Assembly (NCBI GenBank): GCA_009760885.1
Contig: CM019701.1
Coordinates: forward strand, 39,735,515 to 39,799,514
From: Achatina immaculata
Taxonomy: Eukaryota; Mollusca; Gastropoda; Stylommatophora; Achatinidae
Reading direction: 5' to 3'
Length of the DNA: 64,000 nucleotides
The stretch's first letter is position 1. Every line of letters starts with the position of its first letter. A program made the translations under genes and the position numbers. Below, piece by piece: positions 6,353-63,850 of this stretch. The notes under the pieces are model-generated. The model searched no databases. It was given only the letters and a program-made list of their open reading frames with translations, and had not been told where the DNA came from.

Positions 6353-6620
6353 TCTCTTTTGCAGGAGCACATGGTCAGAGAGGGAAAGATTTATGCGTTA
6401 AAGTACACCAGAGAATTAAGGAAACATACTCTATATCATAAAATCAGAAAAGAAGAACACTTACCTTCTAAAAACCATAGAGCTGCACATACAGGAAAGA
6501 AAAAAACCACATAAGGAAAACAGGAGTCCATCTTAAGCAACTGACTGTACGACTGGAGAATATACACTGAAGCAGTATCAGAATATACGCAGCAACATTT
6601 CGTTATTAATTTGAATAAAT
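6353..6620 (+). other. Splice acceptor and 5'UTR exon of GPCR A, with uORF
   Basis: The pyrimidine-rich tract tttctcttttgcag ends at 6364 and is a strong 3' splice site. The exon would start at 6365, 256 nt before the ATG. The same spacing recurs in B (257), C (254) and E (256). An upstream ATG at 6371 opens a 47-codon uORF ending at 6514 (starts MVREGKIYALKY). In B an A-run indel extends the uORF to 66 codons. Confidence 0.75.
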
Positions 6621-8171: not shown

Positions 8172-8244
8172 CAATCTTTTGTGTTCTCAGAAGGACATGA
8201 TAGTATTGTCAGATAAATATTATATTACTTTTAGGGGACTTATG

Positions 8245-8430
8245 TTCACTCATTCATTCATTCATTCACGTGGATGTCCATTGCCGAACTTTGTCGATCT
8301 AACAGCTCTCCTGTAGGCCTCTCGGTTGTAAGAAAGATGCCCTGCTGCTGATGCATCCATTTCCGGATTATCAACGATGTCTTGCAGGCATCTTAGGGCT
8401 AATGGCTACGGTTTGATATTCTGCAGTCCA
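8245..8430 (-). mobile_element. LINE family 3, 3'-end fragment in GPCR A 3'UTR
   Basis: On the minus strand it encodes the family 3 terminus (DIVD.L..DASAAGHL..NREAYR.AV) followed by a (TGAA)n-type tail, seen here as tcattcattcattca at 8250-8268. The same insertion is in block B (12606-12791). It is absent from the aligned 3'UTRs of C and E, where the flanking sequences (acttgtgtt / gattctgcagtcc) are adjacent. Confidence 0.85.
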
Positions 8431-8680
8431 GCATAAACTGCCCTGTTGACTGTTAAGGACTATCACATGGCTGTTCTTCATGAACAATGTGACATCTACA
8501 CTGGCATCTCTTACCATTTTTCTTTTAAACTCAGCCTCGCTCGTTTCTTTTTTTTTCTTTTTTAGAATAGTCCCATCCGTTTTTCTCTATGTCTTAACGT
8601 TCTGTTTTCTGAATGTAGTATTAAGTTTTCTTCTACCTACACTGAAAGAAAATTTATATGTTTTTATCTCTTATCAAGTT

Positions 8681-8686
8681 AATAAA
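8681..8686 (+). promoter_or_regulatory. Poly(A) signal of GPCR A
   Basis: A canonical AATAAA about 510 nt after the stop, in the conserved context ttatcaagttaataaa. B keeps it (13042-13047). In C the aligned site reads aacaaa, and in E the aligned region reads ttaattta. Confidence 0.6.
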
Positions 8687-8781
8687 TTTACAATATTATG
8701 AAACATCTCTAGCACCATGTTTATTTTTTCATGCGTTTTGGCAATCGGTGTCCAAGATCCTGACATGGTTGGTTAACTTTA

Positions 8782-9019
8782 GCTGACGTGCTAGCTTCAG
8801 GGTTGGTGAACCACTGCTGACGTGCTAGCTTCAGGGTTGGTGAACCACTGCTGACGTGCTAGCTTCAGGGTTGGTGAACCACTGCTGACGTGCTAGCCTC
8901 AGGGTTGGTGAACCACTGCTGACGTGCTAGCTTCAGGGTTGGTGAACCACTGCTGACGTGCTAGCTTCAGGGTTGGTGAACCACTGCTGACGTGCTAGCC
9001 TCAGGGTTGGTGAACCATA
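8782..9019 (+). repeat. 34-bp VNTR, 7 copies
   Basis: Seven units of exactly 34 bp (gctgacgtgctagc..cagggttggtgaaccact). The array differs from its block B counterpart (10 units at 13143-13482), so it has changed copy number since duplication. It abuts NR2. Confidence 0.97.
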
Positions 9020-9262
9020 GCCGACCAAGATCCAGTTCCACCTCTAGTTTGGTACCCCGAGTAACAAGCCTAGCATGGCAGACGGGGCAGGAACAGCCAA
9101 AGTCTCCCAGGTGGTGAAGCTTCTTAAAGAAACACTGCACACCCACTGCTTTTTTAGTTCTATCGAGGGACAGCACAAAATAGCCAGCATAACCTGCTTC
9201 ATTCAGCTGTACCTGGACATCTTCGCCATATCGGGTGCAAAGATTATCAATCTTGCAGTTTA
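9020..9262 (+). repeat. NR2 repeat downstream of GPCR A
   Basis: It carries the NR2 landmarks accaagatccag, ggtaccccgagtaac, ggtggtgaagctt and gcacacccactgc. It is followed by a (GAA)n tract at 9266-9298. ORFs here (9075-9263 and the opposite strand) are shadows within the repeat. Confidence 0.75.
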
Positions 9263-9331
9263 AGGAATTAGAAGAAGAAGAAGAAGAAGAAGAAGAAATA
9301 ATAATCAGTTATCGAAACGTCTCCCCCGTCT

Positions 9332-10506
9332 GCATAGACCATATATTTGTACTTAGACAAATATTAGAACAGGCAAATGAATGGCATAGCACAACATATG
9401 CATTATTCATAGATTTTGAGAAAGCCTTTGACAGTGTCAACAGAGATGCACTGTGGAAAATCCTAAGATGGCATGGCCTCCCCCATAAAATAGTTAATGT
9501 AATCAAAGCCCTATACGAGGGTTTTCAGTGCAAAGTTATCTGTGGAGAACATACCTCCAGCAGCTTTAGGGTACAAACAGGAGTGAAACAGGGATGTGTA
9601 CTATCACCAACATTATTTATCTTGGCAGTAGACTGGTTAATGAAGGAGGCAACATCAGACAAACGCAGAGGATTACAATGGACCCTTAACACAGTGCTGG
9701 AGGACCTTGACTTTGCGGACGACATTTGTCTATTATCAAGCAGTCACAAAGATATGCAAGATAAAATAAACAAGTTAACCCAGAATGCAAACAACATAGG
9801 ACTAAAGATCAACGTAGGAAAGACAAAGTTAATGAAGCAAAATGTGAACAACAGAAATGTACTCAGAGTAGATAACAAGTTAGTGGAGGAGGTCAACGAA
9901 TTTGTATACCTTGGCAGCAGAGTAGTAGAAAATGGAGACAGCACAGAGGACATCAACAGCAGACTTACTAAGCAAACCAGGCTTTTGCAATGCTACAGAA
10001 TATATGGAAATCAAATAAACTAAGCATAAATATGAAAATCAGGATATTTAAGAGTAATGTTCTAAGTGTACTACTCTATGGAAGTGAATGCTGGAAAATC
10101 ACCAAAACCATAGAAAACAAGTTGAATTCTTTCCAGACTAAATGTTTACGTAGAATTAAAAAAATATTTTGGCCAAACACCATAAGAAATAACATCTTAT
10201 TAGCAGAAATGCAGATGAAACCACTGACAACAATTATTGAGGAAAGACGCTGGCGATGGTTGGGACATGTGCTCCGAATGACTGACAACTCACTACCAAA
10301 AATAGCACTAAGATGGACACCACAGGGGAGCAGAAGTAAGGGTAGACCAAAAGAGACATGGAGAAGAACAACAGAAAGGATGTTGAGCAATAGAGGGCTC
10401 ACCTGGGCAAGAGCAGAAAAAAAGGCGAAAGACAGGCATTTGTGGAAAACCCTTGCGGAAGCCCCATGTGCCCTGGGCACTTAAGGTTCAGAGAGAGAGA
10501 GAGAGA
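9332..10506 (+). mobile_element. LINE family 2, 5'-truncated, at the A/B duplication junction
   Basis: An 1175-bp APE-type LINE fragment beginning in the RT domain and ending with the family's 3' terminus gggcacttaaggttcag plus an (AG)n tail. The left flank is the last base of duplication block A and the right flank is the first base of block B. No target-site duplication is visible. Other copies of this 3' end: 35868-35918, 61155-61186, 63305-63659. Confidence 0.93.
9334..10484 (+). pseudogene. LINE family 2 reverse transcriptase, one frameshift
   Basis: It opens with the conserved CIDHIFVLRQ, then FIDFEKAFDS, VKQGCVLSPTLF and the catalytic-box region DLDFADDI. A frame change near 9985-10023 is followed by the C-terminal half (RWRWLGHVLRM, GRPKETWRRT) ending ALGT at 10484. 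The endonuclease and RT N-terminus are missing because of truncation. Only the single frameshift interrupts it, which suggests a young insertion. Confidence 0.9.
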
Positions 10507-10712
10507 TATTTTTATATTGACTTTCAGAAACGTTTTTCGCAGCAGTCCAAAATCCCACAGTCAATAGGTTTACACTCTTTAATTTCTTTGTGTGTAATTT
10601 TAGACTAAAATTCAAGAAATAATATTAACATAACATAGAAGGAACATGGCTACTGAGAAGAACTCAGTGTTAGTATTACGTGATAATATATAATTTTTCA
10701 TTTATAAACTTT

Positions 10713-10981
10713 TCTCTTTTGCAGGAGCACATGGTCAGAGAGGGAAAGATTTATGCGTTAAAGTACACCAGAGAATTAAGGAAACATACTCTATATCATA
10801 AAATCAGAAAAGAAGAACACTTACCTTCTAAAAACCATAGAGCTGCACATACAGGAAAGAAAAAAAAACACATAAGGAAAACAGGAGTCCATCTTAAGCA
10901 ACTGACTGTACGACTGGAGAATATACACTGAAGCAGTATCAGAATATACGCAGCAACATTTCGTTATTAATTTGAATAAAT
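10713..10981 (+). other. Splice acceptor and 5'UTR exon of GPCR B, with longer uORF
   Basis: tttctcttttgcag ends at 10724; the exon starts at 10725, 257 nt before the ATG. The uORF starts at 10731 and, because of an extended A-run, reads through to 10931 (66 codons) rather than stopping after 47 codons as in A. Confidence 0.72.
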
Positions 10982-12532
10982 ATGGCGAACGTAACTCTCT
11001 GTTCATATTTTAATTCCCCGTTTTTCGCATTTCCCAGGGTCACGGGAAATGTTTATCTTCTCGTTGGCATCTCTGTCGTTTTAACTGTACTCTCAGCGTT
11101 TGTTGTTTTTACAAACGCCACCGTGATCATAGCCATCATTCGTTCCATGTACTTGGGCAGGCATGTTAACAACAAGAGCAAGATATCCATGATCCTGATA
11201 GTCTCTATGGCTGTATCAGACTTTGTCGTTGGCATCATTCCAATGCCGCTTTCGGTTTACCAAATAGTGAACAACGGGAAATGGTACCTCGGACAGACCA
11301 CGTGCTCTTTCAGAATTACAGCAGATGATTTTCTATGCACTGTCTCAGTTTTTCACGTTATGTGTATGGCAGTAGACAGATACTTGGCAGTATGTCGTCC
11401 CCTGACATACCGTAGACTGACTGTAATAACCGCTTATATCATGGCCAGCGTAAGCTGGTTGCTGCCTGCATTATTTTTCTACTGGTTTTTGCATTATCTA
11501 GGCGACCACTACGATAGTTCATGTTTTGAACATTTCAAAACTTGTGATTTGAATTTCGATATCAGGTACAGGATTACGTCTAATATTATCACTTTCTACG
11601 TTCCTTTTCTGTCACTCTTAGTTCTTTACTTCTTTGTATTACGAGCAGTTCAACATTTCAACAAAAGGAAGCTCAACTTCAGGTTGAAAAAGCTGTCATC
11701 CACGCAGCAGAATTCAAGAAACACAAAGTGTCATGGATTTAAATATTTGCCCAGTTGTATGAATAGTTGCATGTCCGTACTGAGGTTAAATGGGTGTAAA
11801 TATGATATGTCACCAACGTTAGAGTTGTGTTATATTTTCAAAGCAACTCCAAACATTTTCTATATGTCTTCAAGAACAGACTTTGCATTCTCTCCAGTCA
11901 TGAAGTCAAGATCAACAGATACATTCCTGTCGTCAGAAACCACAGAGACAGCTAAAACACCGGACACATCAGTAATATTGTCTGCTGAAAAACTATCAAC
12001 TTCAGACCTGCACAATGTGAAGAGCTGTGCATGTTATACTACGGATTTGAAAGACGATCAACAATTTTCAGAACATGATGAGGAATCTTCTCAATATTCC
12101 AAAGACGGTGTTAATGAAACTGTTGATGATAATTCAAGCAGTTCTTCTAAGAAGCATATGAGTTCTTCTGAAATAATTCAAGACTTGGGACGATTTGACT
12201 ACATTCATCACAAAAAAGTGACCAACATTTCTAAACTTTCACCAAGTACAAAGAACAGTTCTGAGGTTGCTATGAAAACCGCACGTCGTTTAAACAATAC
12301 GAAGGCTCTACGTACTATTGGTTTAATAGTTCTGGCGTTCTCTATTTGTTGGTTCCCTTTCAATGTGGTTCCAATTGTACCAGGTTTCTTAAATCACACT
12401 TTCCCTTACACATCCTATCTTGTCACTGCCTGGCTAGGTTATCTAAACTCCGCCTTAAATCCTTGCTTGTACTGCTGTCATAAATCTATAAGGCGAGCAA
12501 TAATGAACCTGATTTGTCCTTCAATGAAATAG
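10982..12532 (+). CDS. GPCR B: recent tandem duplicate of GPCR A
   Basis: 516 residues, differing from A at 10 positions: V/I in TM1, C109S next to the TM3 disulfide Cys, seven in the long third loop, and L/V at the top of TM6. All class A landmarks are kept: D80, C108, D115, DRY 132-134, W159, CWFP 456-459, NPCLY 493-497. The reading frame is intact and the 3'UTR keeps AATAAA. Most changes fall in the intracellular loop and many nucleotide differences are silent, consistent with purifying selection or simply youth. It has no adjacent first exon; expression would need a new promoter or splicing from the upstream exon at 4555-4818 past gene A. Confidence 0.93.
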   Translation: MANVTLCSYFNSPFFAFPRVTGNVYLLVGISVVLTVLSAFVVFTNATVIIAIIRSMYLGRHVNNKSKISMILIVSMAVSDFVVGIIPMPLSVYQIVNNGKWYLGQTTCSFRITADDFLCTVSVFHVMCMAVDRYLAVCRPLTYRRLTVITAYIMASVSWLLPALFFYWFLHYLGDHYDSSCFEHFKTCDLNFDIRYRITSNIITFYVPFLSLLVLYFFVLRAVQHFNKRKLNFRLKKLSSTQQNSRNTKCHGFKYLPSCMNSCMSVLRLNGCKYDMSPTLELCYIFKATPNIFYMSSRTDFAFSPVMKSRSTDTFLSSETTETAKTPDTSVILSAEKLSTSDLHNVKSCACYTTDLKDDQQFSEHDEESSQYSKDGVNETVDDNSSSSSKKHMSSSEIIQDLGRFDYIHHKKVTNISKLSPSTKNSSEVAMKTARRLNNTKALRTIGLIVLAFSICWFPFNVVPIVPGFLNHTFPYTSYLVTAWLGYLNSALNPCLYCCHKSIRRAIMNLICPSMK

Positions 12533-12605
12533 CAATCTTTTGTGTTCTCAGAAGGACACGGTGGTATTGTCAGATAAATATTATATTACTTTTAGGGGAC
12601 TTATG

Positions 12606-12791
12606 TTCACTCATTCATTCATTCATTCACGTGGATGTCCATTGCCGAACTTTGTCGATCTAACAGCTCTCCTTTAGGCCTCTCGGTTGTAAGAAAGATG
12701 CCCTGCTGCTGATGCATCCATTTCCGGATTATCAACGATGTCTTGCAGGCATCTTAGGGCTAATGGCTACGGATTGATATTCTGCAGTCCA
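12606..12791 (-). mobile_element. LINE family 3 fragment in GPCR B 3'UTR
   Basis: Same insertion, breakpoints and tail as 8245-8430, copied with the duplication. Confidence 0.85.
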
Positions 12792-13041
12792 GCATAAACT
12801 GCCCTGTTGACTGTTAAGGACTATCACATGGCTGTTCTTCATGAACAATGTGACATCTACACTGGCATCTCTTACCATTTTTCTTTTAAACTCAGCCTCG
12901 CTCGTTTCTTTTTTTTTCTTTTTTAGAATAGTCCCATCCGTTTTTCTCTATATCTTAACGTTCTGTTTTCTGAATGTAGTATTAAGTTTTCTTCTACCTA
13001 CACTGAAAGAAAATTTATATGTTTTTGTCTCTTATCAAGTT

Positions 13042-13047
13042 AATAAA
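13042..13047 (+). promoter_or_regulatory. Poly(A) signal of GPCR B
   Basis: AATAAA in the same context as in gene A, about 510 nt after the stop. Confidence 0.6.
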
Positions 13048-13142
13048 TGTACAATATTATGAAACATCTCTAGCACCATGTTTATTTTTTCATTCGTTTT
13101 GGCAATCGGTGTCCAAGATCCTGACATGGTTGGTTAACTTTA

Positions 13143-13482
13143 GCTGACGTGCTAGCTTCAGGGTTGGTGAACCACTGCTGACGTGCTAGCTTCAGGGTTG
13201 GTGAACCACTGCTGACGTGCTAGCCTCAGGGTTGGCGAACCACTGCTGACGTGCTAGCTTCAGGGTTGGTGAACCACTGCTGACGTGCTAGCTTCAGGGT
13301 TGGTGAACCACTGCTGACGTGCTAGCTTCAGGGTTGGTGAACCATTGCTGACATGCTAGCCTCAGGGTTGGTGAACCACTGCTGACGTGCTAGCTTCAGG
13401 GTTGGTGAACCACTGCTGACGTGCTAGCCTCAGGGTTGGTGAACCACTGCTGACGTGCTAGCCTCAGGGTTGGTGAACCATA
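13143..13482 (+). repeat. 34-bp VNTR, 10 copies
   Basis: Ten exact-length units of the array seen at 8782-9019, with the same alternating cttcag/cctcag variants plus variants unique to this copy. Confidence 0.97.
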
Positions 13483-13731
13483 GCCGACCAAGATCCAGTT
13501 CCACCTCTAGTTTGGTACCCCGAGTAACAAGCCTAGCATGGCAGACGGGGCAGGAACAGCCAAAGTCTCCCCGGCGGTGAAGCTTCTTAAAGAAACACTG
13601 CACACCCACTGCTTTTTTAGTTCTATCGAGGGACAGCACAAAATAGCCGGCATAACCTGCTTCATTCAGCTGTACCTGGACATCTTCGCCATATCGGGTG
13701 CAAAGATTATCAACCTTGCAGTTTAAGGAAT
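13483..13731 (+). repeat. NR2 repeat downstream of GPCR B
   Basis: Duplicate of 9020-9262, followed by a shorter (GAA)n tract. From 13780 to 14697 I see no gene or recognisable repeat; a (TA)n run is at 14525-14537 and a short (CA)n run at 14663-14676. Confidence 0.75.
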
Positions 13732-14697
13732 TAGAAGAAGAAGAAGAAATAATCAGTTATCGAAACGTCTCCCCCGTCTATATCAGAAATTAATTTCGAG
13801 ATACTGACTTATGAGCTCCGACATTTACTACAACTGTTTCACTGTCGTATCTGCTGTCTTGTCACGAGTCATTAAGATTTGTAACTTTTCTTCTGCACAC
13901 CTCACTCTCCATTAACTCTTTCACCATCAAGCACAAAAATCCCATGACCATACAAAAAAATCATAATGCACACAGCTGCTACGTTTCTGATATACATTTA
14001 CTGAAGGCATATATATAGGTAAACCTTTTGTATTTAGGTTGTACACTAATATAAAATTTGAATCTCCAAAGGAAATAACAAAATTATAGAAACGGAGCTA
14101 TACGTTTTAAAAAAGAGACATTTAAATTGTTCGAGTTAGGAATAGAATAAGCATTCAATGTAATCGATAAACTACAGAGAAAGTTTATATTTGCCACTTG
14201 GGAAATCCTTTTATTCCAGAGCCCACAGGTTTAAATACATTTCCCTGAGGTTCACAACTCTTGCCGGTAGACTGGTGGGCAAACAAGTACTTTCATTATT
14301 TTACAGAAGCGCTCTCTGCTTGCTGCCCGTTCCTGTTAAGAATTCTTGCACTCTTCATAAAATAAAATCCTTCTTTTAATATTTTAGATGTACTACTGCC
14401 TTGTGACACTTTGAAGCTTACATTACAGAGAGTTTCACGGTTTCAAAAACAAATTGTGAAAATAAACTTTTGTTCTGCTGCCCACTTTTGTTTTTATGGT
14501 TATTTTTTATTTATTTAAATAATTATATATATATATTCATCAGAATATGAGACGTGAGATGTGCGATAAATATAATTCACAAAAGTGATAAAATAATTTG
14601 GAGAACACATAATAGTAGAGATAAAAGAAGGGAAAACAATGAGAAAATGAAGATTTCAATCAACACACACACACACATGCACGCAAACACAAACACA

Positions 14698-21925: not shown

Positions 21926-22715
21926 AAAGAAAGGTAGGAAGAGTATTTCAAGGAGCTTCTCAACCCAGCTGGAGAAACAGAAGAAGAAATACCTATCAAC
22001 CAAAATCTAGCAAGGAGCTCCTTAACCCAGCTGGAGAAATAGAAGAAGAAATATCTATCAACCAAAATCTAGCAAGGAGCTTGAGTCATCAGCACTAAAT
22101 TGTGAAGTCGAAAAAGTCCACGAAACAAAGCATCACGAGTCGATGGTCTAACAGCAGAAACCATATAAACATATGGAGAAACTGGTATAAAATGGCTGGA
22201 AAGAATTTTGTTCTAAAACATGGTCTGAAAGGAAGGTCCTAGACGATTGGCTAAGAGCTTTAGTGGTACCCATCTGGAAAAATAAAGGAGACAAAAGAGA
22301 CTTGTGGAGTATAAAGAGGTATTTCCTTGCTCAATCACGTGGGGGAAAATGTATGCAAAGATCTTAGAAAGCAGAACGAGACAGGTTATAGAAGCTGAAC
22401 TAAGCGAAGCACAGTTTGGACCCAGGAAAGGAAGAAGTTGCACTGACTCAGTATTTGAGCTCCTTCAAGCCTGCGAAAAAGCAGCTGAACTTGACCAAGA
22501 AGTGAACATCATCTTTGTAGACTAAGAAAAAACTTTTGACAAGGTTAAGAGAAACAAGCTCTGGGCAATATAAGAATATGGTGTACTGGTACATCTACTA
22601 GAACACATAATGTTACTATACACAAATAGTCAAAGTACAGTAAGAACAATAGCAGGCAATACGGGCTGGTTCAGTGTAATAGTGGGAGTCAGACAGGGAT
22701 GCGTGTTGTTACCTA
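21926..22715 (+). pseudogene. LINE family 5 reverse transcriptase, first part
   Basis: Recognisable pieces are VVPIWKNKGD (about 22265), EAQFGPRKGRSCTDSVFELLQ, IIFVD followed by a stop and EKTFDKVKR (RT catalytic region), and GVRQGCVLLP at about 22685-22710, where a minus-strand LINE fragment interrupts. A 61-bp segment around 21950-22080 (caaggagc.cttaacccagctggagaaa) is tandemly duplicated. Confidence 0.82.
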
Positions 22716-23215
22716 TGCAGGAAACTCTCTACTATAGAGAGCGGAACAACAACAACACAACTCCTTCAGATCATCAGAGGAAGTACCCCCCCCCCCCAGA
22801 CAAGTGTTTCGGCCCTATTAAACTCCTGACACTCTAAGAGGGTGGGCCCCTCTGGGTCATGACTCCCAGAGGTCTTGTGAGTTGTTGCTTTTTTTGTCCC
22901 GGGATTGAGTTGGCACTGCACTTTTGAAGTGCGTTTTTAGCGATTTTAGTCACGAAGGACTGATATTGGTTGTGACAAACGAAATTATTCATGTTCTCAA
23001 TGCGTGTTTCGCATACTCCACAGCCAGCATGAGGCCTTTTCTGCTGTTTCTGAAAGGTTTTTCAATGCCCTTGCTCTGGCTTGTCCCTTTATGCCCAGTT
23101 TCTTACATAGGTCGTATGCTGATGTTGCTACGAATCCTCTCGCTCCCACTTCTACAGCTATCACTTTTGCCCTGACTCCTGCCCCCTACCTCAGTGGGCA
23201 GGAGGCACTTCGTTA
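22716..23215 (-). mobile_element. WLW-LINE 3' end: C-terminal coding plus SINE-like 3' UTR
   Basis: On the minus strand, 23215-22950 encodes with shifts EVGARGF-like sequence then NSRKGLMLAVEY/ASCWLWSMRN, the C-terminus of another LINE clade whose proteins end in W-L-W/R-R. It is followed by a 3' region ending gagagtttcctgcat, with a C/G homopolymer tract and a run of A. The same coding-to-3'-region junction occurs at 38297-38682. It is inserted in family 5 RT. Confidence 0.7.
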
Positions 23216-25718: not shown

Positions 25719-27248
25719 ATGGCGAACGTCACTCTCTGTTCATACGATTATTTTACTTCCCTGTTTGACGCATATCCCATGGTCACGCGAAATCTTTATC
25801 TTCTCGTTGGCATCTCTGTCGTTTTGACTATGATATCAGTCTTCGTCGTTTTTGCAAACGCCACCCTGGTCATAGCCATCATTCGTTCCATGTACTTGGC
25901 CAGCCATGTGTGCAACAAGAGCAAGATATCCATGATCCTGATAGTCTCCATGGCTGTATCAGACTGTATCGTCGGCATCATTCCAATGCCACTTTCAGTT
26001 TACCAAATAGTCAACAACGGGAAATGGTACCTTGGACAGACCACCTGCTCTTTCAGAATCATATCTGACGAGTTTCTAAGTACTGTCTCAGTTTTTCATG
26101 ATATGTGTACGACATTAGACAGATATTTGGCAGTATGTCATCCCTCGGTATACCGTAGACTGACTGTAATAACCGCTTCTATCATGGTCAGCGTATCATG
26201 GATCCTGCCTGCAATATTTTTCTACGGGTTTTCACATTATTTTCAATACGACAGTTCCGGCTCTGAATATTTTAAAATGTGCGAGGTGAACTACGATCCC
26301 GTATACAGTATTACTTCTAACACTATCGTATCCTGCGTTCCTATATTACTCACCTTCATTCTTTATTTATTTGTATTACGAGGAGTTCGACATTTTCACA
26401 AAAGGAAGTCCAACTTCAGGTTGAAAAATCTGTCATCTACGCAACAGAATTCAGCGAACATAAAGTGCCAGAGTTATAAATCTTTGCCCAGTTGTCTGTC
26501 TTTAGGAACAGACTTTACAAAGTCTCCTGTTGTGGAATCACGGTCAACAGACACATTCATGTCCTCGGAAACTACGGAGACAACTGAAACAGGAGACAGG
26601 TCAATAACATTGTCTGCTGAAAGACTACTGTCTTCAAAACTGGACACTGTGAAGAGCCGTGGAAGTTACACTACTTTTCTGAAAGCCGATCAGGATTTTT
26701 CAGAACATCTTCAGGAGCCGTCTCAATGTTCAAGAAATGGTATTAATGAAACAGTGGATTATAACTCGAGCAGTTCTTCTGCTAAGCAAATGAGTTCTGA
26801 GGTAAATGAAATTGTAGATGATAACTCAAGCAGTCCGCCCGACAAAGATATGAGTTATTCTGAAGTAAATGAAGTTGTAGATGATAAATCAAAGAGCTCC
26901 TCTGGTAAGCTTGACTGCATCCATAGCAAAAAAGTAACGGCCTTTTCTAAATATTCCACAAGCATAAAGATCAGTTCCGAGGTGGCTATGAAAACGGCAC
27001 CTCATCTAAACAATATGAAAGCTGTGCGTACTGTTGGTATAATAGTTCTGACGTTCAATGTTTGCTGTTTTCTGTTTAGTGGTGTTTCATTTCTCCTAGG
27101 TCTCTTAAATTATTCTTTCCCTTACATATACTATCTTGTCTCTGATTGGCTAGGTTATCTGAACCCCGCTTTAAACCCTTTCCTGTACTGTTGCCATCCT
27201 TCTATAAGGCGTGCAATAAAGGACCTGATTTGTCCTTCAAAGAAATAG
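25719..27248 (+). CDS. GPCR C: diverged paralog lacking CWxP
   Basis: 509 residues with an intact frame and the family N-terminus MANVTLCSY. D82 (2.50), D117 (3.32), LDRY 134-137, a TM7 WLGYLNPALNPFLY and helix-8 CysCys are kept. The TM6 signature is CCFLF at 449-453: the toggle Trp6.48 is Cys and Pro6.50 is Leu, which is unusual for a signalling class A receptor. Ser in the TM7 NS pair is Pro. The third loop has a three-fold acidic-Ser repeat (NE.VDDNSSS, residues 341-397) where A has one. It may be a receptor with altered activation or one under relaxed constraint; the frame being open over 1.5 kb argues against a long-dead pseudogene. It may use the first-exon-like segment at 16757-17172. 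Confidence 0.88.
   Translation: MANVTLCSYDYFTSLFDAYPMVTRNLYLLVGISVVLTMISVFVVFANATLVIAIIRSMYLASHVCNKSKISMILIVSMAVSDCIVGIIPMPLSVYQIVNNGKWYLGQTTCSFRIISDEFLSTVSVFHDMCTTLDRYLAVCHPSVYRRLTVITASIMVSVSWILPAIFFYGFSHYFQYDSSGSEYFKMCEVNYDPVYSITSNTIVSCVPILLTFILYLFVLRGVRHFHKRKSNFRLKNLSSTQQNSANIKCQSYKSLPSCLSLGTDFTKSPVVESRSTDTFMSSETTETTETGDRSITLSAERLLSSKLDTVKSRGSYTTFLKADQDFSEHLQEPSQCSRNGINETVDYNSSSSSAKQMSSEVNEIVDDNSSSPPDKDMSYSEVNEVVDDKSKSSSGKLDCIHSKKVTAFSKYSTSIKISSEVAMKTAPHLNNMKAVRTVGIIVLTFNVCCFLFSGVSFLLGLLNYSFPYIYYLVSDWLGYLNPALNPFLYCCHPSIRRAIKDLICPSKK

Positions 27249-35821: not shown

Positions 35822-35867
<46 letters not shown>
35821..35867 (+). repeat. (TA)n microsatellite adjoining a LINE 3' end
   Basis: About 20 TA units directly abutting the 3' end of the short LINE fragment at 35868, at the place where the other copies have (AG)n. 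ORFs rich in IYIYIY are artefacts. Confidence 0.93.
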
Positions 35868-35869
<2 letters not shown>

Positions 35870-35918
35870 GAACCTTAAGTGCCCAGGGCACATGGGGCTG
35901 CCGCAAGGGTTTTCCACA
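35868..35918 (-). mobile_element. Ultra-short LINE family 2 3' end, 51 bp
   Basis: ctgaaccttaagtgcccagg..gggttttccacaa is the reverse complement of the last 51 bases of the family 2 LINE (compare 10446-10496), i.e. an extremely 5'-truncated insertion. From 35919 to 37285 I find no gene or repeat. Confidence 0.85.
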
Positions 35919-37284
35919 ATATATATGCATATGTTTAATTCAGGCTTTGAGATAAGAAGAACTGATGTACTGTACTTTTAATGTGAGGCTCCTAGGTTTA
36001 TATAAATGCTTCCAGGGGGAGAACCATGTAGGATGTTAATGATACTATTGTGAATCTTAAGTTTTCATGTATCATGATATAACTGTGTTCTTATATATGA
36101 GACTGTTTAGATTTTCTTGTGGGTCGCCATGACAGGCAACACTTATGATGATTAATGAGCCACACAGTGCTATATATCACATAATGTCTAACATGCTTGT
36201 GCATGATCTGAGTGGGCACAGTTATTGAGTTGACCTATAATCCTATTTCGTACTAAATAGTTCGTGTTAGAATGTATATTCATGTTGTTGGTTTCATGAT
36301 TTGTCTGCTAGAGATGAATGACCTGATGATATTTAGATAAAGTCATTATCAGGACACTACACGATCACAGGGTAGTGGACCCACTCAAGAGGCGCTCCAA
36401 TGAAGGAAATGAACCTGGGTGAAGATATAGCTGGGGAGGGGGCATACTGTAAGAAGGTTGGGAGGGCCGCACGGAAGCTGTAACGTGGCCGCTTCATCAT
36501 ACTGTAGGCTAAAGATTAGCCGTGCTCCTAACTTAAGAGTAGTAAAGGGTTGAAGGATTGGGATGTGAATAAAAATGGAAAGATAGAGAATTTCGCCTGG
36601 GCCATAGAGTAGTTGTCACATACCCATATACATAATGAGATTGTAAGACCCCTGGGACAATGGTCCGTTTTAGCGAAGGTTAAAGTTGCGGGCACAGTAC
36701 AAAAATTTATACATACAGATATAACCCTGAGAAATTACAAAATAAATATCAACAAAATATAAAAGGATACATTAAGTTCTTTTATATTTTACACTAGGTG
36801 GCTCTAATTCATCTATAAAACATGTGTTTATATGCAATTAAAAAAACTGTCTTCGTCGTTGTATATTTTCTTATAAGCAAACAAGAAACTAATAAAATGG
36901 TGAACATCTTTCTATGTTAACTCATAATTCGAATATGGAGAAATCTATTGTAATTTATCTTTTAATCCCATAATGGGATCTAAGAAGTCAAATCATCTCA
37001 TTTTGATACACTATCCATACGAACTATTTGATTCCTCTAAACTGATGGAATTTTTCTTTTGCATCACTCTTTGCCAAGTATTTGACAATGAATAAGTTCG
37101 CCTGGCTCAAAAGCCAAAGGGACATCGTTGCTACACAAGTATTATATTTGAGCATGTTTTGTGTGATATTGTTTCTGCTTTCAGAATTATGTTGCTTTCT
37201 TTTCAGAGTAAGTAATAAAATTTACTTAAGATAAAAAAGATAAATCTACAATTCCCAGAGATTTGTTTTTTTCACATCTTTCAT

Positions 37285-38296: not shown

Positions 38297-38682
38297 TGAA
38301 ACAGCAGAAAAGGCCTCATGCTGGCTGTGGAGTATGAGAAACAAGCCTTGGGAACATAAGTAATTTTATTTGCCACAATCAATACCAGTCCTCCGTAGCT
38401 AAATCGCTAAAGACGCACTTCAAAAAAAGCGCAGTGGCAACTGGAAGATCATGGGTTCAATCCCGGGACCGGGAAAAAAAAAAAAAAGCAACAACTCACA
38501 AGACCTCTGGGAGTCATGACCCAGAGGGGCCCACCCCCCCCCCCCCCCCACTTAGAGTGTCAGGAGTTTAATAGGGCCGAAACACTTGTATGAGGGGGGG
38601 GGGGTATTTCCTCTGATGATCTGAAGGAGTTGTGTTGTTGTTCCGCTCTCTGCCAGTAGAGAATTTCCTGCATATCTCATAA
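38297..38682 (+). mobile_element. WLW-LINE 3' end with tRNA-like 3' region
   Basis: Encodes ETAEKASCWLWSMRN..WEHK then a stop at 38361. The 3' region contains tagctaaatcgctaaag (A-box-like) and gggttcaatcccggg (B-box-like), an A run, a C run (38532-38551), a G run (38594-38604) and the terminal gagaatttcctgcat. The same coding-to-3' junction at 22716-23215 shows this is one element and not a chance SINE insertion. The stretch 38683-40070 is unannotated. Confidence 0.72.
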
Positions 38683-40082
38683 TGTGAGATGTTATCAAGT
38701 ATAAAGTTGTGCCGTCTTTTGATAAGGACTCCAGACATTATGACATTATGTGAGCAGAGATGGCTTTGTCTCTCTCTCTGAAAAGCGGCGGGTCAAAGTC
38801 AATGTCAACTCGTGGTTTTCTGTCGGGGCTACCTGTGCATGTTTTGGTCATGTGATATTGTATTGTGCAGGGAATTTCAGAGCTAGTTCAGTTACTTGTT
38901 CATAGGCAAACGGCCAGGGATCTGTATGCGTTGAATATATAGATGTGTAATGCTGAAGTTCCTGATACTGTGATGTGGAATAAATGTATCTGCCGTGAAC
39001 CCGACGTTACCAGAGCCGCTTCACGTCGTAGAGTTTTGTTTTATAATGTAAGTTGTTGTATATGTAATGTTGGTGTGTTATGTGGATATGAAGCATGTTC
39101 ACTGTTAACCGTGCTAATGGATATCTCGTAGTTTTGAGATTGTGTAAAATAATAGCATCATCATTGATTTTCATTACGATTCGATGATATATTGAACGCT
39201 TTCATGGAAAGCGCTAAATTATTTATCATATGTTGTTTGTGCGCACTTGGATTTTGCTAGTGTCAATTGATCATAACCGCATAATGATATAATTTGTTCA
39301 TTTCACATCAGTCATAATATATATAATGCGACATTGTTCATTTGAATTGAGTCATTTGTTGATGATGGTAAAAGCGCAGGCAATGGTACTGCTATTTTTG
39401 AGATATGATGTCTTGAGTTAGCAAGATAATAATATATGTGATAAGTATGTGCTGGCTAACTCACAATATGTTAATAGGCTTTGTGTTTAAAGAGAAAGCC
39501 AAGATGTTTGAAGCAGATGTCGAGAATTATTAACAGCGTCACGTGAAGTGACAGATGGATTTTTGTCATGTTTGACTTCATAAGTATTTTTTACCTTTGA
39601 TTTATGCTTGATGTTATTTAGTTTGTGAAAACAGTCAGCCTTTTGTTTCTTTATGTCAGTCTGGTAACGTGTGTTACGTGCATGTTCTGTGATTAAACAT
39701 TAATTTTTGCTTTGATCAGTATGTGTTTATGAGTGATCATTGATGCTGGTAGCGAATGAGCTAGATTATGGTGTTTGATTTTCTTGATGTTAGGAAAAAG
39801 TCAGTTGGGGTAACAAACTAGTCACATATCAAAGGGCTAGGACCTTTGGAGGGGGTGCAGTTTGGGATCCCATGTACGCCTGTACTTCATATGGGGACTA
39901 GAATTAGTTATAAACGGCTAGCAATTTAAGCCAAGCACCAGAGAACCTCCCACGATAAAAGAGACTCCAAGATGATAAAGACCAAATAAGGTACACAAGT
40001 AACAGTTTTACAATATCCAAGAACAGACTTTACAAGGTCTTCAGTACACGATCAACAGGTACCATCGGGTATGGCGTTCAGT

Positions 40083-40752
40083 CCACTCAGAGTTTGTATA
40101 CTCTGTAATCTACTCAGAGTTTGTATACTCTGTAATCTACTCAGAGATTGTACACTCTGTAATCTATTCATAGTTTGTATACTCTATAATCTATTCATAG
40201 TTTGTATACTCTGTAATCTACTCAGAGTATGTATACTCTATAATCTACTCAGAGTTTGTATACTCTGTAATCTACTCAGAGTTTGTATACTCTGTAATCT
40301 ACTCAGAGTTTGTATACTCTGTAAACTACTCAGAGTCTGTATACTCTGTAATCTACTCAGAGTTTGTATACTCTATAATCTACTCAGAGTTTGTATACTC
40401 TGTAATCTACTCAGAGTCTGTATACTCTGTAATCTACTCAGAGTTTGTATACTCTATAATCTACTCAGAGTTTGTAAACTCTGTAAACTACTCAGAGTCT
40501 GTATACTCTGTAATCTACTCAGAGTTTGTATACTCTGCAATCTACTCAGAGTTTGTATACTCTGTAATCTACTCAGAGTTTGTATACTCTGTAATCTACT
40601 CAGAGTTTGTAAACTCTGTAATCTACTCAGAGTTTGTGTACTCTGTAATCCACTCAGAGTTTGTGTACTCTGTAATCCATTCAGAGTTTGTATACTCTTT
40701 AATCCACTCAGAGTTTGTATACTCTGTAATCCACTCAGAGTTTGTATACTAT
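40083..40752 (+). repeat. 27-bp minisatellite, about 25 copies
   Basis: Unit ctactcagagtttgtatact..ctgtaat. Each unit contains cagagt-ttgtat-actctg, a 6-bp inverted repeat with a 6-nt loop. Since 27 is a multiple of 3, a 276-codon ORF (LLRVCILCN repeats) runs through it; this is an artefact. The array ends where a TATG array starts. Confidence 0.97.
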
Positions 40753-41200
40753 GTATATATGTATATATATATGTGTATGTATGTATGATTGTATGTATGT
40801 ATGTATGTATATATGATTGTATGTATGTATGTATGTATGATTGTACGTATGTATGTATGTATGTATGTATGTATGATTGTATGGTATGTATGTATGTATG
40901 ATTGTATGTATGTATGTATGATTGTATGTATATATGTATGTAGGTATGATTGTATGTATGTACGTATGTATGTATGTATGTATGTATGTATGATTGTATG
41001 GTATGTATGTATGTATGATTGTATGTATGTATGTATGATTGTATGTATATATGTATGTAGGTATGATTGTATGTATGTACGTACGTATGTATGTATGATT
41101 GTATGTATGTATGTATGATTGTATGTATGTATGTATTATGATTATGTATGTATGTATATGTATGTATGTATGTATGTATTTATGTATGTATGTATGTTTG

Positions 41201-41234
<34 letters not shown>

Positions 41235-41280
41235 CGTATGTATATATGCATGTATGTATGTATGTATGTATGTATGTATT
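40753..41280 (+). repeat. (GTAT)n array with ~117-bp higher-order repeat
   Basis: Mostly gtat units with interspersed gattg. A segment starting gattgtatggtatg at about 40875 recurs at about 40992, so a 117-bp higher-order unit has been duplicated. Long YVCMYVCM / HTYIHTYI ORFs are artefacts. From 41281 to 42600 there is nothing I can support apart from the tract at 42009-42066. Confidence 0.95.
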
Positions 41281-42008
41281 GTTACCGTTAATGCTGCAGT
41301 GTTGCTTGCTTCTTGTCTGTGCTTGATATTTTATGATATGCCCCGGTTTTATCTGTTTATATTCAGTGTGGGTTTTTTGTTTTTGCATCTACTAACTTTT
41401 CATTTATTTGTCCAATGAGCAATCTACAATCTCATTGCTAGCACACTTTTCCATAATCAGAACTTCAGATTACAGTCCTGGTCTTGTTTGTATGAAAGTG
41501 CAACATTTGTCTGCGAGTTATTTCTCAGAAATATATCGGTTTTTCTCACTGAGTTCATCAATACAAGTCCGATAAGCTTGATTAATACTGATTAGAGACT
41601 TTCCGCTCTATATTTCATTTTCATAAAAAAAAACAGATGTCTATTGTCTTATTTAACTCTTAGCCTGGCAAACAACACGAATAGCACATGAACATTTCTT
41701 GTTATCGAACATTACCGTCACAATTATTTGGCTGCAAAAAACACAGTATCTAATTTTGGCAATTTATGGCATTATAAATGTATTAAATGCCGGTTATATT
41801 TTGCGTTTAGTTTTTAAGATGGTTTAAACGGTCACAGCATTTAAAGAATTAGACAAAAATAGACCATGAGTGACATCTGAAGGTTAACATTTTCAACACG
41901 TTTGTTCCTGTCTATATTTTCATGTCAATGGTATTTATTAACTAGGTATGTCAATGTCTTTTTTCCCATAAATCAGAGAGTTTAGCTAAAAAATTTGTCA
42001 ATGTCAGA

Positions 42009-46480: not shown

Positions 46481-46657
46481 ACACTTCACCTCCCTAAGAC
46501 ATGCAAAAGATACGAGACAGAAATTTTTTTAACCTAAAAGAAGACATCTATTCGTGCTTGTGAGTACTAATTTCTAAAATAACCACCTCCACTACTACTC
46601 TGTTGTGCGAAGACGTTACGTCATTCGTGAAGGACATTTCAAATATCTGATGGACTG

Positions 46658-47940
46658 TCACATGGATTTCTGACAGCGGTATATGGCAGGACTGAGAGCT
46701 GAGTTACTGTAACCCAACCAGTTGGTCAGAAAATGAATACAGCAGGGAAACGTCGTGATAACGCAGGCGGACAAATTTATGACGATAGTGTACGGCAGCC
46801 AGCAAACAGTGAAGGCCAGAAGTATCCCACATATAGTGCGAACAGCCTTTACCGAACCATGATGATGTGATACCCTGGAAAAAGCTTTAAATGTAACCTT
46901 TATTACTGAGGTTAACCTAATTCTCTTTACACTTCTGGAGTTAGGACGATCAGACGAGGTTAACCTAATATCAGACAGTGTGGAAATACACAAAAAAGAC
47001 CAAGAAGAAAGCCTCCTACAACGGCGTGGCTGTCTTCTGCGACAGTGAAGATTTGACTGACGGCTTTGTCACTGTCAGAGAAAAAGTCTTTATCACGTGA
47101 CTTGTTTATGGATTCAAGTTCTGTTTTTAAAGTTACGGGCACTGATATGTTTCTCTCACACCTGCTACAGGTGAACATTCATCCTCTCTGATGTTTTCTT
47201 CATGGAACGATAATTGTAGCTGGGCTGATTCAGTACACAATGATTCTCTATCTGACAAATCTGCCTCCAGAAAACATTCCGTGCCAGTTGATAAGAAACT
47301 AGATCCACCGTTTTGCTGGACAAAGACAGGGCATGAGAGAATTACTGTAGATGGCATTTCGGTTCCCGCATTTAGATGAGACATACTAATGGATGTCGTG
47401 GGATCTACACAAGTTACTAAATCTGTAAGCGCATGAAACATATTCTTTGCTGCTGAATTAACTTTCGGTTGTGTGAAATACTTCTCCTCGTTAGTAGTCG
47501 AATTTGTCGAAAAATGACGACATATAGACGACGAAAATGACAACAAATGGAAATAAATTAGTTATCCTATAAGATCAATGGAAGTTCATCCTGCAGGAAC
47601 TTCGATTAGAACTCCAGTCCTTGTTGTCATCATCAAGGACAAATATCATACTCAGGACAAAAAGTGCAGGGATAAACCAGCATGCGCTGACCATGGCGTA
47701 GGCTGCTTTCACAACCAGTTCCGGGACATGATTGGCTTGCACACGGCCACGCATCTGTCCACACCTACTAAAATCACGTGATATATAGACCTGGAATATA
47801 AAAACTCGTCGATGATAAACCCGACTGTCGACAGCTTCGTAGACAGAGAGGGAACTGCACCAATCAGAATGTCGGAAACAACCATAGAGAGCAGCAGTAT
47901 CGTGGTGATGTTCCATTTATTTACAGAATGAGCTCCCATG
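46658..47940 (-). pseudogene. GPCR pseudogene D
   Basis: Minus strand pieces of the same receptor type: TM2 with SMVVSDILIGAVP (about 47880), a TM3 end with VDRCVAVCKP, TM4 with VSACWFIPALFV, a TM5-like ITNLFPFVVIFVVY in another frame (about 47560), a long third loop split over two frames (47546-46960), and TM6/TM7 with AVRTICGILLAFTVCWLPY and NWLGYSNSALSPAIY. TM1 and the N-terminus are missing, replaced by a 24-bp satellite. The DRY Tyr is Cys, NPxxY is SPxxY, and there are several frameshifts. It is more distant from A, B, C and E than they are from each other. Confidence 0.85.
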
Positions 47941-52904: not shown

Positions 52905-53131
52905 TAGATACTGGAAGATCATGGGTTCGATCCCGGGACCGAAAAAAAAAAAAAGCAACAACTCACAAGACCTCTGGGAGTCATGACCCAGAGGGGCCCA
53001 CCCCCCTTAGAGTGTCAGGAGTTTAAAGGGCCGAAACACTTGTCTGAGGGGGGGGGGGTACTTCCTCTGATGATCTGAAGGAGTTGTGTTGTTGTTCCGC
53101 TCTCTACGGTAGAGAGTTTCCTGCATATAGA
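52905..53131 (+). mobile_element. WLW-LINE 3' region / SINE-like copy
   Basis: gggttcgatcccgggaccg (B-box-like), A run, gcaacaactcacaagacctc, gggcccacc, a G run at 53048-53057, and the terminal gagagtttcctgcat. Same as the 3' region of 38297-38682 without the coding part. 53132-53730 holds only a short (CA)n at 53353-53367 and a possible tRNA-like head near 53240. Confidence 0.7.
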
Positions 53132-60893: not shown

Positions 60894-62471
60894 CTATATC
60901 ATTAAAGGACAAATCAAGCTCAGTACTGCTCGCCTTACAGATGCATGGCAACAGTACAAGCAAGGGTTTAAGGCGGAGTTTAGATAACCTAGCCAGGCAG
61001 TGACAAGATAGACCGAATAAGGGAAAGTGTGATTTAAGAAACCTGGAAGAACTGTCACTAAACTGAACGGAAACCAGCAAACAGTGAACGCCAGAACTAT
61101 CACACCAATAGTACGCACAGCTTTTACGTTGTTTATGCGACGTGCAGTTTTCATCTCTCTCTCTCTGAACCTTAAGTGCCCAGGGCTTTTCATAGCGACC
61201 TTAGAACTGTTCTTTCTACTTGGGGAAAGTTTAGAAACAGTTACCACTTTTTGGTGATTGGTGTAGCCAAGTCGCTCCCTCCTCTCTGGAGTTGCTAGAG
61301 AAAAACTCGTATGTTTGTCAGGAGAACTGACTGGGTTATCATCTACAATTTTATTGATACTATCTTTGTCATACTGAGACGTTTCCTTAACATGTTCGGA
61401 AAAATCTTGGTCCCCTTTTAAACACGTAGCATAACATCCACGACTTTTCACCGTGCTCAGTTTTGAAGATGAAAGTTTTTCAGCAGACAGTATCATTGAA
61501 TTGTCCCATGTTTCAGCTGTCTCCTTCGTTTCTGACCACAGAAGATTTGTTGATCTTAATGACAGGACTGGACACCTGGTAAAGTCTCTTACTGAAGACA
61601 GACAGATAATGTCTGGAGCACTTTCGAAAACATAAGACAACTTTAACGATGGTGACACCTCATATTTACATACTTTTAACCTGGGATTGGACATACAAGA
61701 TTTCAGACAACTGGGCAAATATGTTTCTCTGTTCGCTGAATTCTGCTTCGTGGATGACAGATTTTTCAACCTGAAGTTGAGCTTCCTTTTGTGAAAATGT
61801 CGAACTGCTCGTAATACAAAGAAATAAAGAATGAAGATGAGAAGAAAAGGAAGGTAGAATGTGATAATGGCAGACGTAATTCTGAATGTGGGATCGTGAT
61901 TAAATTCACAAATTTGGAAATGTTCAGAGCAGGAATTATTGTGGTGGTCACATCGATGTCGTGAAAACCAGTAGAAAACTAGAACAGGCAGGACCCAGCT
62001 TACGCCCACCATGATATAAGCGGTTATTACAGTCAGTCTACGGTATATCAGGGGACGACATACTGCCAAGTATCTGTCTACTGCCATACACATAACGTGA
62101 AAAACTGAGACGGTACATAGAAAATCATCTGATGTGATTCTGAAAGAGCACGTGATCTGTCCGAGGTACCATTTCCCGTTGTTGACTATTTGGTAAACTG
62201 AAAGCGGCATTGGAATGATGCCAACGATACAGTCTGATACAGCCATAGAGACTATCAGGATCATGGATATCTTGCTCTTGTTGTTAACATGCTTGCTAAA
62301 GTACATGGAACGAATGATGGCTATGACCACGGTGGCGTTTGTAAAAACGACGAAAGCCGAGAGTACAGTAAAAACGACAGAGATGCCAACGAGAAGATGA
62401 AGATTTGGCGTGACCCTCGGAAATGCGAAAAACGGGGAAGGAAAATACGAACAGAGAGTGACGTTCGCCAT
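60894..62471 (-). CDS. GPCR E: paralog with a LINE-derived 13-residue insertion
   Basis: 525 residues, a class A aminergic-like receptor inverted relative to A-C. The N-terminus MANVTLCSYF is family-wide. D80, C108, D115 (3.32), DRY 132-134, W159 and a long third loop follow; CWFPF is at 465-469 and WLGYLNSALNPCLY ends in NPxxY at 502-506. Compared with A (VAMK-TA), the loop/TM6 boundary reads VAMK, 13 extra residues (429-441), then TA. The extra DNA is a 32-bp LINE family 2 3' end plus a 7-bp target duplication, kept in frame. Frame and all key motifs are intact, so it is probably functional. The start is chosen by conservation and by the acceptor 256 nt upstream. Confidence 0.93.
   Translation of the reverse strand: MANVTLCSYFPSPFFAFPRVTPNLHLLVGISVVFTVLSAFVVFTNATVVIAIIRSMYFSKHVNNKSKISMILIVSMAVSDCIVGIIPMPLSVYQIVNNGKWYLGQITCSFRITSDDFLCTVSVFHVMCMAVDRYLAVCRPLIYRRLTVITAYIMVGVSWVLPVLVFYWFSRHRCDHHNNSCSEHFQICEFNHDPTFRITSAIITFYLPFLLIFILYFFVLRAVRHFHKRKLNFRLKNLSSTKQNSANRETYLPSCLKSCMSNPRLKVCKYEVSPSLKLSYVFESAPDIICLSSVRDFTRCPVLSLRSTNLLWSETKETAETWDNSMILSAEKLSSSKLSTVKSRGCYATCLKGDQDFSEHVKETSQYDKDSINKIVDDNPVSSPDKHTSFSLATPERRERLGYTNHQKVVTVSKLSPSRKNSSKVAMKSPGHLRFREREMKTARRINNVKAVRTIGVIVLAFTVCWFPFSLVTVLPGFLNHTFPYSVYLVTAWLGYLNSALNPCLYCCHASVRRAVLSLICPLMI
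61155..61186 (-). mobile_element. LINE family 2 3' end inserted in GPCR E coding sequence
   Basis: On the minus strand gccctgggcacttaaggttc followed by (AG)n is identical to the 3' end of the family 2 LINE at 10475-10506. It is flanked by atgaaaa at 61148-61154 and 61187-61193 (minus strand), a 7-bp target-site duplication. Total added length is 39 bp. Confidence 0.95.
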
Positions 62472-62742: not shown

Positions 62743-62865
62743 TATAACAGGTTTTAGTGCAACAATTATAGATTATTATATTTAAGCTGACATTGTTCTA
62801 TTTTCAGTAGTTTTCTTCTTTCTTATTATTTCCATATTATATCTTAATTTTATATGCTGGAAACT

Positions 62866-63128
62866 CTTTACTGTAGATAGAGAGCAGAACAACAACATTG
62901 TTCCTTCAGATCGCCAGAGGAAGTTACCCCCCCCCCCCCCCAACCCTTTTCAGACATGTGTTTCGGCCCTATTAAATTCCTGACACTCTAAGGGAGGTGG
63001 GCCCCTCTGGGTTATGACTTCCTGAGGTCCTGTGAGTTGTTCCTTTTTCTTCTTTTCGACCACAAATTTAACCCGCGATTTTCCACGGCCCTGCACTTCC
63101 AAGTGCACCTTAGCGATTTAGCAAAGAT
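62866..63128 (-). mobile_element. WLW-LINE 3' region / SINE-like copy
   Basis: Reverse complement of the 38400-38682 type: ggaaactcttt..agagagc at its 3' end, C run at 62928-62941, gtttcggcccta, gggcccctctggg, and the gcgatttagc end. The B-box region is poorly preserved. Confidence 0.7.
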
Positions 63129-63300: not shown

Positions 63301-63337
<37 letters not shown>

Positions 63338-63850
63338 CCTTAAGTGCCCAGGGCACATGGGGCTTCCGCAAGGGTTTTCCACAAATGCCTGTCCTTTGCC
63401 TTTTTTTCTGCTCTTGCCCAGGTGAGCCCTCTATTGCTCAACATCCTTTCTGTTGTTCTTCTCCATGTCTCTTTTGGTCTACCCTTACTTCTGCTCCCCT
63501 GTGGTGTCCATCTTAGTGCTATTTTTGGTAGTGAGTTGTCAGTCATTCGGAGCACATGTCCCAGTCATCGCCAGCGTCTTTCCTCAATAATTGTTGTCAG
63601 TGGTTTCATCTGCATTTCTGCCAACCAGATGTTATTTCTTATGGTGTTTGGCCAAAATATTTGCAGCTGATGCGGTGAAAACGTTGAGGCACAGCATCAT
63701 GTCCACTTGGATGCGGGTTATGTTGGTCATTTTTTTCAGTCCCCAGGTGCAACAAAAATGCAGAGGGCTTGCAATACTCCTTTAGCAGACACCACCGCAG
63801 ACTACGGGAATCCTTGCCCCGTTATCAAGGCAAGGCCTAATAACTGAGCG
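63245..63850 (-). repeat. NR2 repeat, split by a LINE
   Basis: Minus strand landmarks: gataacggggcaaggat, gcggtggtgtctgctaaagg, ctggggactgaaaaaa, caccgcatcagctgcaaa, then after the LINE, ttctttgcagct..gaatacgaactcg and ggagatagagg. The LINE lies at 63305-63659 with the duplication tttgcagct. Confidence 0.75.
63305..63659 (-). mobile_element. LINE family 2, C-terminal fragment with TSD
   Basis: Flanked by tttgcagct at 63296-63304 and 63660-63668. It begins in the minus strand at FGQTP/NNIWLAEMQMKPL, covers RWRWLGHVLRMTDNSLPK and GRPKETWRRT, ends ALGT at 63340, and carries an (AG)n tail seen as (CT)n at 63303-63334. The 71-codon minus ORF is open, close in sequence to 10270-10484. Confidence 0.92.

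Follow-up and report, generated by a model that had tools for sequence, protein, structure and literature searches.

Why does one member of a cluster of closely related receptor genes carry 13 amino acid residues that its neighbours lack? The window, the 64-kb stretch of DNA analysed here, holds four intronless class A GPCR genes with full open reading frames (ORFs), referred to as A, B, C and E (Table 1), and the additional residues are found in receptor E. All four receptors matched PF00001 in a profile search. In addition to this 7tm_1 domain, receptor E keeps the three motifs of a class A GPCR that were tested, DRY, CWxP and NPxxY, as DRY132, CWFP465-468 and NPCLY502. The closest solved relatives of the receptors, among the best 60 of 625 by sequence, include trace-amine, serotonin, histamine and adrenergic receptors. 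A protein search with receptor E, in which only the 7,996 candidates with the most shared words were scored, gave 31 matches. The top six were named from gastropods (Biomphalaria, Lymnaea, Physella and Batillaria) and were 29-41% identical over part or most of E; no close relative of E was found among the 31. The window is thus probably gastropod DNA.

The other copies are in different states. Receptor C keeps its ORF, but CWxP in TM6 is gone (CCFL) and a stretch of the third loop is missing, so that C may be decaying or specialised. Receptor D is too eroded at the site of the additional residues to give information about it. The homology of the upstream flank of E to that of A ends exactly at the start of a dispersed repeat (62852-63056), which is also present at 22714-23050, 38298-38675 and 52910-53128.

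Table 1. Receptor genes, LINE copies and tandem units in the window. TSD, target-site duplication; RT, reverse transcriptase.
Feature	Position	Strand	Remark
Tandem unit A	6146-9331	+	3186 bp; carries receptor A
Receptor A	6621-8171	+	ORF list; inside tandem unit A
LINE copy, 5′-truncated, RT domain from its middle on, frameshift near 10020	9332-10505	+	1,174 bp; fills A/B junction
Tandem unit B	10506-13779	+	3274 bp; carries receptor B
Receptor B	10982-12532	+	ORF list; inside tandem unit B
Receptor C, paralog without insert	25719-27248	+	Empty-site evidence
LINE copy, 53-58-bp end	35862-35919	-	Inserted in (AT)n tract
Receptor D, eroded fifth GPCR copy in several pieces	46628-47939 (~46.6-47.9 kb)	-	
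Receptor E, intronless 525-aa class A (amine-type) GPCR ORF	60894-62471	-	PF00001 E=1.4e-45
Downstream copy of 7-bp TSD ATGAAAA	61148-61154	-	Alignment with A, B, C; TSD scan
32-bp LINE 3′ end: last RT ORF bases, stop, 7-bp 3′ UTR, start of (AG)n tail	61155-61186	-	
Upstream copy of 7-bp TSD ATGAAAA	61187-61193	-	Alignment with empty site of A, B, C; TSD scan
LINE copy upstream of E	63318-63662	-	345 bp, 98.0% identical; TSD CTGCAAA (7-9 bp)

The insert, its source family, its TSD, the empty site and the open frame can all be read base by base from the assembled sequence. On the minus strand, E has GCT-ATGAAAA, then GCCCTGGGCACTTAAGGTTCAGAGAGAGAGAG, then ATGAAAAC again. At the same site A, B and C have GCT-ATGAAAAC, with a single ATGAAAA and no insert. 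The base preceding ATGAAAA is T at the upstream copy, as in the empty site, and the G of the tail at the downstream copy; the base following it is G, from the insert, after the upstream copy and C, from the target, after the downstream copy. Because the empty site is known from A, B and C, both boundaries of the duplication are unambiguous. A segment that was ancestral and was then lost from A, B and C is ruled out, as ATGAAAA is doubled only in E.

The inserted bases are the last 32 bases of a LINE, including part of its tail, so that the 3′ end is intact and the 5′ side truncated. They were identical at 32 of 32 positions to 10470-10501 in the LINE copy between A and B (33 of 33 when the A common to the TSD is included; E=5e-11 in a self-comparison of the window), and were also 100% identical to the same end of the copy upstream of E. 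A 28-bp probe from the insert, allowing up to 3 mismatches, was found at four places in the window, all of them at ends of this LINE family. In 100 shuffles the same probe gave a mean of 0.00 matches and a largest count of 0, which ruled out chance similarity. The preliminary description of this locus had resolved the 39-bp addition into a 7-bp ATGAAAA duplication and a 32-bp LINE 3′ end, and had placed the 13 residues in E only; both points agree exactly with our alignments, in sequence and in coordinates. It had also named the correct source copy (9332-10506), of which only the end is amended, to 10505/6, the last A being common to the following sequence.

The residues gained are SPGHLRFREREMK, at 429-441. 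They were added with the frame intact because 32 and 7 make 39, a multiple of three, and because there is no stop in the frame used. The insert is open in the sense frame of E (PGHLRFRERE), and the stop lies in the LINE's own frame; its TAA (10482-10484) is read in E within CAC TTA AGG, as had been pointed out. The term "exonised", which had been applied to this insert, has to be dropped, because splicing was not involved: the insert lies inside an uninterrupted ORF that is colinear with the intronless A, B and C, and no new exon was made. Exonisation via splicing is thus ruled out.

Target-primed reverse transcription is usually recognised by a truncated 5′ side, a retained 3′ end with its tail, and a TSD whose empty site is known. 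In E, the short TSD (two copies of ATGAAAA, against one in A, B and C) accompanies the other marks, and we found no counter-evidence to the insertion itself. We are therefore confident that the 39 bp represent a recent target-primed insertion, in which a severely 5′-truncated, RTE-like LINE entered the coding exon of E. In such an event the LINE endonuclease would have nicked E at GCT/ATGAAAA, reverse transcription would have started from the (AG)n tail and broken off some 32 bases later, and ATGAAAA would have been doubled when the 7-bp stagger was repaired. The TSD is of the same size class as CTGCAAA at the 345-bp copy and falls in the range given for RTE elements, 6-12 bp (PMC2887409).

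The LINE family has four copies in the window, of 1,174, 345, 53-58 and 32 bp, and the 5′ part, in which an RTE element would carry its APE-type endonuclease, is missing from all four; a related element at 151-2427 has PF14529. The longest copy has an open RT frame between 9334 (IDHIFVLRQ...) and 10020, with a match to PF00078 from profile position 55 on (E=2.7e-27). The C-terminal ORF after the frameshift matches DUF6451 (9990-10484) and ends in ...LAEAPCALGT; its TAA is followed by 7 bp and then by (AG)n. This ORF had 506 relatives, and the named ones among the 120 listed were from oysters, Elysia and other animals. A protein encoded by a public contig of 682 bases (P0033) matches 91% of the C-terminal ORF at 97% identity; a close copy of this LINE therefore exists in another dataset.

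By its structure (3′ UTR, tail and TSD sizes) the family appears to be RTE-like. It has the reverse transcriptase domain and a very short 3′ UTR ending in simple repeats, and a TSD in the range of about 6-12 bp was seen at two of the four copies (7 bp at E and 7-9 bp at 63318-63662). The copy at 35862-35919 has hardly any AG tail and an ambiguous TSD, which is undefinable because this copy sits in (AT)n.

So short an insert, preserved in coding sequence, had been called unusual. Neither half of that statement is supported here. Two of the family's four copies in the window do not reach 60 bp (about 58 bp or less), so that, small as this sample is, short inserts are nothing out of the ordinary for the family in this window. 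According to PMC2887409, RTE 3′ ends that are truncated, carry 6-12-bp TSDs and end in di- or trinucleotide repeats are common. As for preservation, we simulated the insertion of LINE ends, 20-120 bp long and each with a 7-bp TSD, into the interior of B on both strands. The product was in frame and open in 15.8% of these insertions, and in 49% when the 32-bp end itself was used. An open frame is thus likely by chance, and with so high a rate the survival of the ORF needs no special cause. In brief, the earlier reading as a LINE 3′ end with its TSD, inserted in frame, stands without "exonised" and "unusual". The insert has a clear LINE origin and is a further example of a known insertion type.

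Two other features of the window were recorded. Long tandem-repeat ORFs on both strands at 40071-41388 are translated simple repeats and probably not genes. An ORF at 59191-59553 matches helix-turn-helix/PAX-like and CENP-B-like DNA-binding domains; we presume that it is a remnant of a Tc1/mariner-type transposase.

The age of the insertion bears on what can be said about selection. No substitutions were found in the 32 insert bases and the 14 TSD bases (46 bp), compared with about 0.11 substitutions per site on the E branch. The probability of finding none over the insert and TSDs is 0.01 at 0.10 substitutions per site and 0.10 at 0.05. The insertion therefore appears young, and it probably falls in the younger part of the E branch. 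Since it is probably young, its intactness says little about later selection.

For receptor E as a whole, dN/dS between A and E was 0.57 over the gene and 0.40 outside the loop. Changes were polarised with C as the outgroup, under a weakly supported root among C, E and A/B (0.647), and 50 unresolved cases were excluded. On the E branch, 72 of 101 polarised changes were nonsynonymous, against an expected fraction of 0.775 (p = 0.087; omega-like ratio 0.72); on the A/B branch the count was 49 of 80 (p = 0.0008). These ratios suggest that purifying selection on the E branch was weak.

One explanation of the weak constraint is that E is decaying and that the insert was a neutral step toward a pseudogene, as may hold for C with its lost CWxP and for the remnant D. 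The E-branch ratio is indistinguishable from the neutral one, and changes or erosion are also seen in the sister copies C and D. We nevertheless consider decay rather unlikely, because E keeps its full ORF and the class A motifs. No stops appeared on its branch over at least 101 substitutions (P = 0.02 by drift), and each of the four gaps between A and E at the DNA level (12, 3, 3 and 39 bp) is divisible by three. For most of its history E has probably been a coding gene, and one less constrained than A/B. The insert was most likely tolerated rather than selected, though E could be drifting, in which case "tolerated" would perhaps mean "not yet lost".

The opposite explanation is that the 13 residues were kept for a changed G-protein coupling or desensitisation of E. 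The insert lies at the end of the long, poorly conserved third intracellular loop of E, just before TM6. The Arg and Glu residues attributed to it are present: it adds R434, R436, E437, R438 and E439, and also K441, with a net charge of +2, and these charged residues adjoin TM6. Numbered from P6.50 (468), residues 429-441 are about 6.11-6.23 and precede TM6 proper. The usual G-protein contact positions, which we take to be ~6.29-6.37, would begin more than one and a half helical turns after the insert and would keep their place in TM6.

AlphaFold2 models of E and B, made with the same 24 sequences, give a hint of an effect at this position. The TM6 helix starts at residue 431 in E (~6.13) and at 427 in B (~6.18), and mean pLDDT was higher in E (73 for both 431-440 and 441-450) than in the nearest matching blocks of B (45 for 421-430 and 56 for 431-440). 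This suggests, as a hint only, a modest extension of the helix by a few residues in E. The comparison is weak, because overall confidence is lower for B than for E (64 vs 68) and because neither model is reliable in the loop, where pLDDT falls below 50 at 248-425 (E) and 247-430 (B).

The insert may alter G-protein coupling, as had been proposed. The charged residues and the earlier, more confident helix start would speak for adaptive retention; against it, TM6 is uninterrupted, the open frame is likely by chance, the insertion is too young for a signal of selection, constraint on the E branch is weak, and the helix comparison is limited by the lower confidence of the B model. We regard adaptive retention as distinctly improbable. 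The insertion may have been tolerated mainly since the loop accepts extra residues, and any effect on signalling would be small or modest, with a cytoplasmic start of TM6 slightly longer and more basic.

Two explanations concern the origin of the 39 bp instead. A double-strand break in E could have been patched with LINE cDNA or with genomic DNA taken from a LINE close by. In favour of such a patch are the shortness of the piece and the 345-bp copy, which has the same end and lies on the same strand at a distance of only about 2.1 kb. Repair would not be expected, however, to end at the 3′ terminus of an element with its tail and to leave a clean duplication of 7 bp, the size also found at another copy, which makes this origin very improbable. 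An assembly artefact at 61148-61193 is hardly credible: (AG)n tails are error-prone and the assembly sequence alone was examined, but a misjoin is an unlikely source of a clean TSD together with an intact frame and the exact 3′ end of the family.

As an example of how a retrotransposon can lengthen a receptor loop, the insertion into E is of textbook clarity, and three paralogs keep its empty site. The more valuable lead is the junction between A and B, which is filled by the longest copy of the same LINE family. The two tandem units are 98.7% identical (3130 of 3171 aligned sites), with differences at 1 of 475 upstream, 24 of 1551 coding and 16 of 1145 downstream sites. Both contain a 34-bp minisatellite, of 6.9 copies in A (8782-9017) and 9.9 in B (13143-13480), and the difference in copy number makes up most of the difference in unit size. 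The LINE alone fills the junction: its RT frame begins no more than 2 bases from the left edge and its tail reaches the right edge. In the 600 bp beyond each outer edge, left of unit A and right of unit B, no convincing match to the LINE was found. The best matches were of 13-18 bp (18 bp at 89%, E=0.024; E = 1.0 on the other side). A TSD scan found no short TSD adjacent to the junction LINE; a 7-bp pair, GAAACGT, lies tens of bases from both ends. A LINE alone at the junction, outer edges without one and no adjacent short TSD are the marks of a LINE-mediated tandem duplication.

Two ordinary histories are ruled out by this arrangement. Plain tandem duplication through an older LINE would leave a LINE 3′ end before A, which is absent. 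A later ordinary insertion at an existing A/B joint would have an adjacent short TSD, which is also absent, and would need to land exactly on the joint.

Most simply, the units would be the TSD of a single aberrant insertion, or the ends of two sister chromatids would have been bridged by LINE cDNA. We give roughly an even chance to B having been made by a single aberrant target-primed insertion, with cuts ~3.2 kb apart or with cDNA bridging sister chromatids. The order of unit A, LINE and unit B, with a LINE of the family found in E, would then be that of a gene-sized TSD, a description that seems to us about as likely to be right as wrong. Its plain-TSD form is weakened, because 3.2 kb is far beyond ordinary TSD sizes; for human insertions, a median of 21 bp is reported (PMC12350158).

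Unequal crossing-over is a real rival to the single event. If two homologs had each carried a heterozygous LINE, one at 6146 and the other at 13779, crossing-over between the two insertions would give the same junctions. Alternatively, the assembly path may be chimeric and run through two LINE copies. The units differ by 41 substitutions and in their minisatellites (6.9 vs 9.9 copies), which speaks against a single locus of one haplotype entered twice but is compatible with two haplotypes.

If the single aberrant insertion is the true origin of B, one retrotransposon family both duplicated and diversified members of a receptor cluster. It would provide a route of gene duplication at the DNA level without pre-existing repeats and without an mRNA intermediate of the gene. 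A single event would also leave a searchable signature for the growth of receptor clusters, namely gene, LINE 3′ fragment and gene, with no outer LINE.

We compared these findings with known systems from the literature on large TSDs, on tandem duplications linked to LINEs and on insertions of RTE elements into coding sequence. Among the open-access papers listed for these subjects, the titles and beginnings of abstracts showed the tumour duplication described below (PMC7058536) and no germline gene-sized TSD made by an RTE element, which is not proof of absence. A study of repair-mediated duplications in vertebrates sets tandem duplications aside (PMC2671141).

The short 3′ UTR, dinucleotide tail and TSDs of the window's LINE fit the RTE clade as described in PMC2887409. 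Its (AG)n tail is unlike the A-rich tetra- or pentamers that are given as RTE ends in PMC1291365. The copies resemble the 5′-truncated RTE-clade copies with microsatellite tails in both papers (PMC2887409; PMC1291365), also in having no strict target. In contrast to the truncated copies of PMC2887409, the copy in E is only 32 bp long and lies in frame inside a coding exon.

The amphioxus opsins, a GPCR family, also gained copies at TE-populated loci (PMC5802833). There the copies are ascribed to unequal crossing-over between TE copies, whereas for A and B no LINE was found within 600 bp beyond their outer edges. The closest likeness to the A/B junction is in human cancers, where an L1-mediated tandem duplication has a single LINE fragment at the tandem junction; the model for that 22.6-Mb duplication is a LINE cDNA bridging two sister-chromatid ends (PMC7058536). 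That case is somatic and of megabase scale, whereas A and B are from an animal assembly and involve 3.2 kb, one intact receptor gene and an RTE-like element. If A and B arose in one event, they would be a germline, gene-sized counterpart of this tumour LINE-mediated tandem duplication.
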